From assembly GCF_008365385.1 (NCBI RefSeq), contig NZ_QOVF01000001.1:248001-312000 (forward strand): a stretch of 64,000 nt of DNA. Direction: 5' to 3'. Source of the stretch: Halopseudomonas laoshanensis. GTDB lineage: Bacteria > Pseudomonadota > Gammaproteobacteria > Pseudomonadales > Pseudomonadaceae. How positions within the stretch are numbered: the first letter of the stretch is position 1; each line of letters starts with the position of its first letter. The translations under genes were made by a program, and so were the position numbers. Shown one piece after another: positions 15,122-18,705 of the stretch. The notes under the pieces were generated by a model. That model was not told where the DNA came from and did not search any database. It worked only from the letters and a program-made list of their open reading frames with translations.

Positions 15122-17332
15122 CTATCGATCAGGCTGCTGGGCAAGTATTTCGGCATAGATGCTCTTGATCTCCATCGCGAACTGATCAACTGAATGCGCT
15201 CTGGCAGAATTCCGAGCGTTGCTGCCCATTTGCTGGCGCAGATCAGCGTCGCATATCAGCTTTGCCACTTCCGCCTGCCATAGGCGCTGATTCTCCGGCG
15301 TTTTGAAGCCGTTTACCCCCTGCGCGATCACATCATCAATACCACTTGAGCGTATGGCGACCACTGGCATTCCGGCGGCCATGGCTTCCAGGATGACCAT
15401 GCCCTGGGTTTCTGATTTGGAAGCGAATACAAACAAGTCTCCCAGGCGGTAGTAAGAGGCCATCTGCGCCGGATCGACCGCGCCGACCAACGAAAACCAG
15501 GCCCCCAACTGCAACTCGTCGATGCGCTTCTGCAGCCGTTGCCGCTGATGCCCATCGCCGATCATCAATAGCCTGAAAGGCTGGGCGATCTCCAGGCGCA
15601 ACTGCTGCACGGCATCGATCATGAAGTCGATGTTTTTCTCGTTCGACAGCCGCGCCACACTGATCAGTATGATTTCCCGCCCGATCCCCAACTCTCTGCG
15701 CAGGGCGGATAGGTCGCTTTCATCAACTGACTGAAAACGCTGAAAATCTATCCCGGTAGGCTGGACGAAGGTCGGCGCCTTGACGCCGATCATGCGCAAA
15801 TATTCTTCGGCAGAATACGTCGGGACCACAATGCCGTCACATTTATTGGCGAACCGCTTGATCAGCGAGTGTGAAATCAGGTTGCGGAACAGATTGCCGG
15901 GCAGCGGTACAAAGTGAGCGTAATGCTCCAGGCGCGTGTGGTAGGTGTAGACCACGGGCACGCCTAGGCGCCGACCGATAAACAACCCCAGCGATCCAAT
16001 CCAGATCGGGTGATGCAGATGAATAATATCCGGACGAAATTGTTTGATTTGCCGATGAATGCCAGGGGAGAAAATATTGGCAAGTCTGAACTCCTGTCGA
16101 GAACCCAGTGATAACAGCGATGGCAGGCGGATTACTCCAGGCTCGTCGTCGCGTTGATTGGTGTAGCGTGGCGCGACGATCAGGGTTTCATTGCTGCGCG
16201 CTCGCAAGCCTGTGCACAGGCGCTGGATAGACAGCGGCACGCCGCCAATAAAGGGCAAATAGTTGTTGGTGAACATCGCCACCCGGACGGGCTTTTCGAT
16301 CCAGGGCGCGGGATTGATGTCAAAGTTGCGATAATAGTCGCGGCCAACAAAGACCAGAGTGTACAGGCGCATCGCCAGCAGACTCATCAATCCCAATATC
16401 AGCAGGAAATTGACGAACCCTACATAGAACAACGAGTAGATAAAAAACCACAGGCTTTCCAGCTTTTTGAATAGAGGGTGCTGGCCAATCTCTACCGGCA
16501 CCAGTTCTGTGGTGACGCCTGTGGCGCTGACCTGCACGCGTACATAGTGATAGAAGCTGGTGTCATCATTGAGTATCAGGCCGCCGGCGCCGCCGGTGGT
16601 GATAAAACGAGTCCCGGCGATCTCCCGCTCTGAATACATGGGTAGGTTGGCCGAAAATACCAGATCGATATGATGTTGTTTAACCAGCCTCATCAGGCGA
16701 TCGACAAATTCGGCAGGTGCCAGAAAGTCTTCGTCCTCAATCAGCAGGCTGTTGTCCTCGACGTGCAGGGGTGGGTAGCCGATAAACAAGAAGGTATGCG
16801 CGGCATCGTCACTGCCCAATAGGTCGGTGAGCCATTCCAGCTGCCAGCGGAAATGGGTTTTGCCGGTGCCATCGAGAAAAATAAGCCGGCTGTCTCCGAG
16901 CGTTACCGAGAAGAAATGCGGGCCGAAGTGCTCATAAAAGCGAAAGCTGCCGAAATTGGCGTATTCATTGGAGCCAAAGGTCAGCAGATAGGGGATCTGC
17001 AGGTGGCTTAAAGTACCGTAGAGCGCGCGGTACTTATCTTCACCGCCAGCACTTACGGCGTTGCCGGCTGAGACCAGAAAATCGGTGCTCCCCTCATTCA
17101 GCAAAGGAATGAAAGTTCGCTCGAATACACCGACCGAGTTGTTGATATTGCCGACCACGGCGAAACTGAATTGCTCGGCATCTCCCAGTTTGCTTTGCAG
17201 CTCCAGCAGTTGCTGAGTATGCACGGCGGAAAATTCGGGTTTTGACAGGTTCAAATAGCCTTTATAGCCGATCAGCGCCATGACTAATGCGATGTTCAGA
17301 TAGAACAACGCCTTGAAGGGACGTTTTCGCAT
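15122..17332 (-). CDS. Membrane fusion protein: degenerate calcineurin-like phosphatase domain plus GT4 glycosyltransferase
   Basis: A 736-aa two-domain protein. After an N-terminal membrane anchor (residues 8-25), residues about 55-275 follow the metallophosphatase fold order, but every metal-ligand motif is altered: VVGNINN (59-65, usually GDxH), SAGNAV (usually GD), FGSNEY (118-124, usually GNHE), IGYPPL (usually a His before PP) and SANLPMY (227-233, usually GHxH). Membrane helices at about 293-330 lead to a GT4 domain (350-736) with NNYLPFIGGV, HLHHP, VARLSNEKN and the EX7E pair E641/E649. Topology suggests an extracytoplasmic pseudo-phosphatase and a cytoplasmic sugar transferase. The ATG (17332) overlaps the upstream flippase stop as TGATG. 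Longer in-frame starts (to 17419) lie inside that gene and were rejected. Confidence 0.85.
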   Translation of the reverse strand: MRKRPFKALFYLNIALVMALIGYKGYLNLSKPEFSAVHTQQLLELQSKLGDAEQFSFAVVGNINNSVGVFERTFIPLLNEGSTDFLVSAGNAVSAGGEDKYRALYGTLSHLQIPYLLTFGSNEYANFGSFRFYEHFGPHFFSVTLGDSRLIFLDGTGKTHFRWQLEWLTDLLGSDDAAHTFLFIGYPPLHVEDNSLLIEDEDFLAPAEFVDRLMRLVKQHHIDLVFSANLPMYSEREIAGTRFITTGGAGGLILNDDTSFYHYVRVQVSATGVTTELVPVEIGQHPLFKKLESLWFFIYSLFYVGFVNFLLILGLMSLLAMRLYTLVFVGRDYYRNFDINPAPWIEKPVRVAMFTNNYLPFIGGVPLSIQRLCTGLRARSNETLIVAPRYTNQRDDEPGVIRLPSLLSLGSRQEFRLANIFSPGIHRQIKQFRPDIIHLHHPIWIGSLGLFIGRRLGVPVVYTYHTRLEHYAHFVPLPGNLFRNLISHSLIKRFANKCDGIVVPTYSAEEYLRMIGVKAPTFVQPTGIDFQRFQSVDESDLSALRRELGIGREIILISVARLSNEKNIDFMIDAVQQLRLEIAQPFRLLMIGDGHQRQRLQKRIDELQLGAWFSLVGAVDPAQMASYYRLGDLFVFASKSETQGMVILEAMAAGMPVVAIRSSGIDDVIAQGVNGFKTPENQRLWQAEVAKLICDADLRQQMGSNARNSARAHSVDQFAMEIKSIYAEILAQQPDR

Positions 17333-18592: not shown

Positions 18593-18705
18593 GGTGGCCC
18601 TGTCGGTCCCCTCGCAATGATTCGCCGTTAACCTGGTCAGGCCCGGAAGGGAGCAGCCACAGCGGTTATATCGTGTGCCGGGGTGTGGCTGGCGGGGCTG
18701 CCACC
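18593..18705 (+). ncRNA. ffs: Signal recognition particle 4.5S RNA
   Basis: The conserved SRP domain IV apical loop is present (GGTCAGGCCCGGAAGG followed by GAGCAGCC), which binds Ffh. The ends GGTGGC (18593) and GCCACC (18700-18705) pair, enclosing a long imperfect rod of about 113 nt, the normal size and shape of bacterial 4.5S RNA. Position immediately upstream of dnaX is common in gammaproteobacteria. The open frame running through this region into dnaX is not a real N-terminal extension. Confidence 0.95.

Follow-up and report, generated by a model that had tools for sequence, protein, structure and literature searches.

A conserved fusion of a GT4 glycosyltransferase with a metallophosphatase-like domain lacking its metal ligands, encoded beside a flippase-like protein in Halopseudomonas laoshanensis: a possible glycolipid synthase-flippase pair

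The window analyzed here is a stretch of 64,000 nucleotides from Halopseudomonas laoshanensis (NCBI RefSeq assembly GCF_008365385.1, contig NZ_QOVF01000001.1, positions 248,001 to 312,000 of the forward strand), in which one gene encodes a fusion of a predicted periplasmic domain of the calcineurin-like metallophosphatase type with a glycosyltransferase (GT) domain of the GT4 type, and is preceded by a gene for a flippase-like membrane protein. The architecture of the fusion, the loss of the metal ligands throughout its family, the purifying selection on the phosphatase-like domain and the close linkage to the flippase-like gene are apparent from the sequences. We propose, with moderate confidence, that the two genes form a glycolipid synthase-flippase pair, in which a metal-free periplasmic domain of the synthase would bind the product or dock on the flippase, and thereby regulate the cytosolic enzyme. 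The fusion is real, conserved and apparently undescribed; its chemistry is of a known kind, to which a new control or docking module is added.

Relatives of the fusion were collected in a scan of a genome collection (proteins longer than 700 amino acids; best 80 of 144 relatives used). Matches to the GT domain only among loci L090 to L110 were set aside, and four identical rows were removed (85 of 89 kept). Alignments A1 and A2 contained 44 rows, i.e. the window protein, 42 loci of less than 82% mutual identity, and locus L089; the tree contained 39 of the 98 fusions. As active set (A3), 13 of 18 weak-match loci were used; L123, L126, L128, L130 and L132 were excluded for their long frames. 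Ligands were counted over 98 distinct full-length fusions and compared with these 13 active canonical enzymes.

Six ligands were scored: Asp of motif I, Asp of motif II, Asn of motif III, His of motif IV, and the two His of motif V. The fusion protein of the window keeps none of the six, whichever register is used for motif IV; among the 98 fusions, 92 keep none and six keep one, whereas all 13 canonical relatives keep six (the counts for each motif are given in Table 1). The replacements are not random, with nearly fixed Asn at positions 62, 64, 91 and 229 (N64 in 94 and N229 in 92 of the fusions), and the codons for Asn62 and Asn91 show only silent AAC/AAT changes over 83 coding sequences. 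The His of the DxH type in motif I (residue 64) was excluded from the six ligands, its position being ambiguous in the alignment with active enzymes. The His of motif III is present in 44/98 fusions and in 12/13 active enzymes. For motif IV, the 13 canonical enzymes put the ligand His at residue 185, and HMMER against a purple acid phosphatase puts residue 186 there, which is His in 81/98 fusions and Tyr in two (the window protein and L082, a relative with 96% identity); register 185 is preferred because the following Pro then aligns. A count over eight positions with the motif IV ligand at 186 was rejected (at most two kept; in the 13 canonical enzymes, the invariant His falls in the column before it). 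Judged by its metal ligands, the domain is predicted not to be an active PF00149 metallophosphatase.

A preliminary description of this DNA had claimed that all five metal motifs are degraded and had named, as one of two findings that would speak against this, other residues rebuilding a metal site. The coordinates, the open reading frame (ORF) and the five motifs that it quoted are all correct, and the alignment of homologues extends the claim from the single protein to the family. Its counter-possibility finds no support at the level of sequence: a rebuilt metal site was looked for among the 98 fusions, and only three charged or His positions of the domain proved invariant, E123, D154 and H262, where active enzymes have an acid at 123 in 13/13, an acid at 154 in 10/13, and His opposite 262 in 6/13 (with the alignment unsure there).

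The fusion protein alone matches PF00149 with an E-value of 0.042 and 14.7 bits, under the gathering cut-off of 21.5 bits; at the level of the family, 36 of the 44 aligned members match PF00149 at E<=1 (best, 8.8e-7). A search of the PDB with the family profile returned plant purple acid phosphatases at 1.2e-4, over profile positions 82-201, i.e. the second half of the domain only. In an hhalign comparison of the family with the 13 canonical metallophosphatases, all of which belong to PF00149, the probability was 99.6% over 208 columns with an identical motif order; this result is not independent of the 13 enzymes because the same family profile recruited them, while the PF00149-member and PDB-profile matches are independent of that set. 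The domain is regarded as a homologue of the PF00149 calcineurin-like superfamily, a relation that is clear for the family and weak for the fusion protein alone; the calcineurin-fold order of motifs described earlier is likewise weak in the single protein and supported by all three comparisons at family level.

The ratio of nonsynonymous to synonymous substitution rates (dN/dS) of the phosphatase-like domain is 0.097 against L082, with a median of 0.228 and a maximum of 0.383 over 375 pairs. Fourteen of its 29 invariant columns lie within five residues of motif positions, a zone of 61 of the 236 columns (odds ratio 3.2, p=0.006). No free-standing copy of the domain was found among the strong matches (E<1e-80) obtained from the samples of the class and the phylum (7/369 class genomes and 7/398 phylum genomes, with G000 and G422 common to both); all of these lie in fused frames of 744-880 codons. 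A search of 37 genomes of the genus gave nine matches at >=46% identity, all spanning both domains, as do the best 80 of 144 loci. By these measures, the domain is under purifying selection and represents a conserved pseudophosphatase family, which is also found on plasmids.

For the topology of the fusion protein, the positive-inside rule was applied to hydropathy and charge. The family-mean net charge is +2.67 for residues 1-9 and -2.43 for residues 29-52, which places the N-terminus in the cytosol, residues ~30-290 in the periplasm, and the GT4 domain in the cytosol. A cytosolic location is required of the GT4 domain of a nucleotide-sugar enzyme. The second hydrophobic stretch, of 38 residues, may hold a re-entrant or tilted part. 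The earlier suggestion that a pseudophosphatase is linked through the membrane to a GT4 enzyme is backed by this analysis of hydropathy and charge, together with the family-wide ligand loss and the selection on the domain.

The GT domain matches PF00534 (1.5e-36) and PF13439 (8.7e-30), and the assignment to GT4 with intact EX7E glutamates stands. The best curated model for the domain is that of alpha-monoglucosyldiacylglycerol synthase (NF049988), with 197-199.8 bits and a cut-off of 400; in the same genome, the fusion reaches 199.8 bits and the next GT4 protein 71.6 bits. The model for GpgS, the N-acetylglucosamine (GlcNAc)-phosphatidylglycerol (PG) synthase (NF053787), gives 128.8 bits against a cut-off of 480. 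A total of 47 NCBIfam models match at E<=0.1, and none of the best 25 reaches its cut-off. The GT domain probably works like a lipid glycosyltransferase, outside every characterized subfamily that was compared.

The flippase-like gene lies directly upstream of the fusion gene in the window, and the two share one base, where its TGA meets the ATG of the fusion. Its product gives 32.3 bits with the model for GpgF, the glucosamine (GlcN)-PG flippase (NF053789; cut-off 320). A flippase-like gene is located directly upstream and on the same strand in 72 of the 80 loci, with an overlap of four bases in 61/72 and of one base in 6/72, as counted from start codons that we chose; L055, one of the other eight loci, is cut off. 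Over the 98 fusions, of which 96 were assessable within the fetched stretches, the neighbor is flippase-like in 84, a VTT-domain gene in five, and neither in seven (the assignments for L115 and L141 were taken from the longer stretches L135 and L154). Within the genus, a flippase homologue was found in 6/37 genomes, all of them among the 8/37 with the fusion; the fusion genomes G011 and G029 are without it. The pair is also annotated as adjacent on Roseobacteraceae plasmids. Four of the fusion-adjacent VTT/DedA-type genes (L134, L135, L136, L154) match PF09335 with 84.7-86.9 bits (cut-off 33.9), and the fifth (L146) was found as a tblastn match only. In the tree of 39 fusions, those with VTT neighbors form, together with L142 (outside the assessable 96), one clade with 100/100 support that covers three families. 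DedA proteins have been reported as bacterial lipid-carrier flippases in the available text of PMC12893004, so both types of neighbor point to lipid translocation.

Table 1. Features of the fusion gene and its flippase-like partner (window positions) and the evidence for each; counts are over the 98 fusions and the 13 active enzymes
Feature	Position	Strand	Evidence or remarks
Fusion coding sequence	15122..17332	(-)	736 aa + stop, ATG start; homologues span both domains down to 44-46% identity
First membrane helix, residues 10-28	17249..17305	(-)	positively charged cytosolic N-terminus; family-mean hydropathy >1.4 at centers 12-23
Predicted periplasmic pseudo-metallophosphatase domain, residues 53-288	16469..17176	(-)	PF00149, PDB-profile and hhalign comparisons; ligand counts
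Motif I, VVGNINN, residues 59-65	17138..17158	(-)	N62 for ligand Asp; N 95/98, E 3/98, D 0/98; active, D 13/13
Motif II, SAGNAV, residues 88-93	17054..17071	(-)	N91 for ligand Asp; N 98/98, D 0/98; active, D 13/13
Motif III, FGSNEY, residues 119-124	16961..16978	(-)	S121 for ligand Asn; N at 121 in 3/98; active, 13/13
Motif IV, IGYPPL, residues 184-189	16766..16783	(-)	G185 for ligand His, then Y186; H at 185 in 0/98; active, 13/13
Motif V, SANLPMY, residues 227-233	16634..16654	(-)	N229 and P231 for two ligand His; H at 229 in 0/98, at 231 in 3/98; active, 13/13 each
Second hydrophobic segment, residues 293-330	16343..16456	(-)	family-mean hydropathy >1.4 at centers 302-322
Predicted cytosolic GT4 glycosyltransferase domain, residues 350-736	15125..16285	(-)	Pfam GT4 models and NCBIfam GT models
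EX7E motif, E641 and E649	15386..15412	(-)	both kept in 98/98
UPF0104/LPG_synthase_TM flippase-like membrane protein, 352 aa	17332..18390	(-)	PF03706, 124.4 bits (cut-off 33.4); TIGR00374, 89.6 bits (cut-off 43.2)

Most of the best 80 of 144 loci are from Marinobacter; the other hosts among them are Idiomarina, Pseudidiomarina, Halopseudomonas, a few Pseudomonas species, Marinospirillum and Fodinicurvata, and, as metagenome-assembled genomes (MAGs) for which contamination is possible, one Oleiphilaceae, one Azoarcus and two Desulfobacterales. These host taxa are mostly marine or halophilic. A further 33 copies were found in plasmid records (30 Pseudosulfitobacter, one Sulfitobacter, one Alloyangia, one Halomonas), and on one Pseudosulfitobacter plasmid the pair is flanked by insertion-sequence genes. 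Within Halopseudomonas the distribution of the fusion is patchy, and horizontal transfer is supported by genome G029, which holds a fusion copy from a different clade. The loss of the metal ligands is judged to predate the spread of the fusion over several bacterial families and plasmids. The fusions on the two Desulfobacterales MAG contigs (L061, L071) are nested within the Marinobacter/Idiomarina group, reflecting either transfer or misbinned contigs.

For the function of the pair, we propose synthesis, flipping and product capture because known glycosyltransferase-flippase pairs and dead metallophosphatase folds serve as analogues. The GT4 domain would use a nucleotide sugar as donor to glycosylate a diacylglycerol-type lipid at the inner leaflet, and the MprF-like (UPF0104) partner would bring the resulting glycolipid across to the outer one. 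The metallophosphatase in the periplasm would have shed its metal ligands before the spread of the sampled family, and the old active-site cleft, in which Asn occupies most of the former ligand sites in motifs I, II and V, would be kept as a putative metal-free binding site. This cleft would most likely bind the headgroup of the flipped glycolipid or dock on the flippase, and the content of the outer leaflet would couple or down-regulate synthesis via the periplasmic domain. Synthesis on the inner leaflet has moderate support, and flipping by the partner is suggested by gene association; the substrate class, the flipping, and the binding or regulatory role we infer. A sensor or binding module is a plausible role for the phosphatase-like domain. 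Its most specific form, a transmembrane product sensor whose Asn-lined dead site binds the glycolipid delivered by the flippase and slows the cytosolic GT through the membrane segment, is put forward tentatively.

Several observations weigh against a glycolipid synthase-flippase pair with a binding or docking domain. The flippase partner is not strictly needed, since seven of the 96 assessable fusions have neither type of neighbor, and no flippase homologue was detected at E<=0.001 across the genomes of all seven. The VTT genes are convergent to the fusion, are not co-transcribed with it, and are confined to a single clade. Donor and acceptor are not fixed by the models because the cut-off of NF049988 is not reached, and a GpgS-like specificity was dropped (NF053787, 131 bits for the fusion and 126 bits for another GT4 protein of the genome). 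If the motif IV ligand is read at residue 186, no ligand is kept in 17/98 fusions, one in 75/98 and two in 6/98. The conservation near the motifs, finally, could partly reflect constraints of the fold.

A possible alternative is a pure scaffold: the dead domain would have no small ligand and would only tether the synthase to the flippase or to another envelope protein. The tight linkage to the flippase gene is in line with this, and a precedent is provided by the B-subunits of eukaryotic DNA polymerases, in which an inactive calcineurin-like phosphodiesterase domain has been suggested to act as a scaffold (PMC4996933, as far as the available text goes); against it, the invariant columns are enriched at the motifs of the old active site, and the domain is retained in the seven fusions with neither a flippase-like nor a VTT neighbor.

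It is rather unlikely that the GT4 domain makes an exopolysaccharide, a lipopolysaccharide or a protein-linked sugar, with the flippase moving that product or being unrelated. GT4 is a broad group, as the number of matching NCBIfam models illustrates, and 2.4 kb downstream of one plasmid copy lies a gene with the annotation 'exopolysaccharide biosynthesis protein'. However, the diacylglycerol glucosyltransferase model is both the best one for the fusion and distinctive in its genome, and the partner is of the MprF/GpgF/HexF kind. Furthermore, a comparison of 26 loci revealed no neighbor family recurring in unrelated contexts (in >=3 loci) besides the flippase and the VTT gene: of the seven families found in >=3 of these loci, F1 and F2 are the flippase and the VTT gene, F3 (presumably a P-type ATPase) occurs in L001, L152 and the window, and F4-F7 occur in three Halomonas-type loci only. 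The ORF picking in this comparison missed the flippase of L137, L148 and L149, where it is present by other evidence.

A hidden enzyme, i.e. a metal-free hydrolase or one with a rebuilt site that trims a periplasmic lipid or sugar phosphate, appears improbable. Much of the fold pattern is retained (D154, Q164, W167, and the glycine-rich loop 247-251), the motif III His persists in somewhat less than half of the fusions, and the frequent His at 186 stands opposite the motif IV ligand in one alignment. In contrast, all 98 fusions lack, in either register, the Asp of motif I, that of motif II and the first His of motif V, and of the three invariant charged or His residues, the acid at 123 and, in most cases, the one at 154 are common to active enzymes.

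That the phosphatase domain is a relic, carried along as decaying baggage, is scarcely credible: residues 121, 122, 186 and 231 do vary among members and the median dN/dS is somewhat above that of the GT domain (0.145), but the ratios stay far below 1 throughout, the mean identity to the window protein is 0.607 for the domain and 0.688 and 0.580 for the two GT halves, and the genus matches and the best 80 of 144 loci all span both domains.

Further observations concern the surroundings of the cassette. At the site of the missing flippase in Halopseudomonas pelagia (L001:3656-5530), a purple acid phosphatase-like gene was found (PF00149, 2.7e-10; Pur_ac_phosph_N, 1.1e-5); a purple acid phosphatase as partner of the fusion was rejected, being present in 7/37 genomes of the genus, just two of them with the fusion. 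In L151 (2482-9183), the frame of a GT4 relative that stands alone (33% identity) overlaps with one encoding phosphodiesterase and endonuclease/exonuclease/phosphatase domains, and a VTT gene (PF09335, 82.4 bits) is located nearby; this region is possibly another lipid-modifying set. Calcium/sodium antiporter genes are located near the pair on two different Roseobacteraceae plasmids (L147:3338-6765 and L149:3383-4348), one of which has corA and an alkaline phosphatase D gene as well. In the window, the cassette adjoins a bacterial small signal recognition particle (SRP) RNA (18601-18697), which is located between the flippase gene and an ORF on the opposite strand that we take to be dnaX-like. 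No match to the Pho box consensus was found at <=3 mismatches between the flippase gene and this ORF. Similarly, for upstream stretches of 79 loci and of the window (80 in all, placed by distance), the best Pho box scores are hardly different from those of shuffled sequences (11/14 in five real and one shuffled; 10/14 in 24 and 18).

It is an open question how the two leaflets of the inner membrane are kept in balance during glycolipid synthesis in Gram-negative bacteria, and a conserved two-gene cassette whose synthase would reach the periplasm via a dead enzyme domain allows the control of inner-leaflet synthesis from the outer leaflet to be asked about directly. The fusion also adds an uncharacterized family to the pseudo-metallophosphatases. 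A pseudophosphatase with a regulatory role in lipid glycosylation is not known to us, nor did a search of the open-licence literature reveal one; in the same literature, no description of a GT4-pseudophosphatase fusion and nothing relevant on glycolipids of the host genera was found.

Among known systems, GpgSDF of Pseudomonas aeruginosa, which comprises a GlcNAc-PG synthase, a deacetylase and a predicted flippase, resembles the cassette in that a GT4 enzyme is encoded with a UPF0104 (AglD2/YbhN) flippase-like protein and the product is a membrane lipid (PMC12713373, available text). It differs in that GpgS is predicted to be cytoplasmic and without membrane helices (PMC12713373), in that both the fusion and its partner score well below the cut-offs of the GpgS and GpgF models, and in its deacetylase, for which no gene was seen adjoining the pair in the window. 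In HexSDF of Clostridioides difficile, a lipid glycosyltransferase is likewise encoded with an MprF-like flippase; HexS, however, carries the annotation of a monogalactosyldiacylglycerol synthase, the system includes a deacetylase, and the available text mentions no pseudophosphatase domain (PMC10128005). MprF combines in one protein a synthase and a translocator, for which scrambling of many lipids has been demonstrated, and thus couples modification of the headgroup at the inner leaflet to translocation by a membrane domain (PMC11980842, available text), as is proposed here; in contrast, MprF transfers aminoacyl rather than glycosyl groups, and the functions are divided here between two linked genes, with a dead phosphatase as an extra fused module. 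A phosphatase-like domain goes unmentioned in the available accounts of all three systems (PMC12713373, PMC10128005, PMC11980842).

The nearest curated model over the whole GT domain, alpha-monoglucosyldiacylglycerol synthase, is matched at half of its equivalog cut-off, and the fusion has N-terminal membrane and periplasmic parts in addition. The B-subunits of eukaryotic DNA polymerases have a metallophosphatase fold without catalytic motifs that is kept as a non-catalytic module, as is predicted for the fusion, but they are nuclear replication subunits, neither membrane-spanning nor joined to a glycosyltransferase (PMC4996933, available text). The purple acid phosphatases and bacterial calcineurin-like phosphatases of PF00149 are homologous to the domain in the same motif order, and from these it is set apart by the loss of all six ligands in 92 of the 98 fusions.

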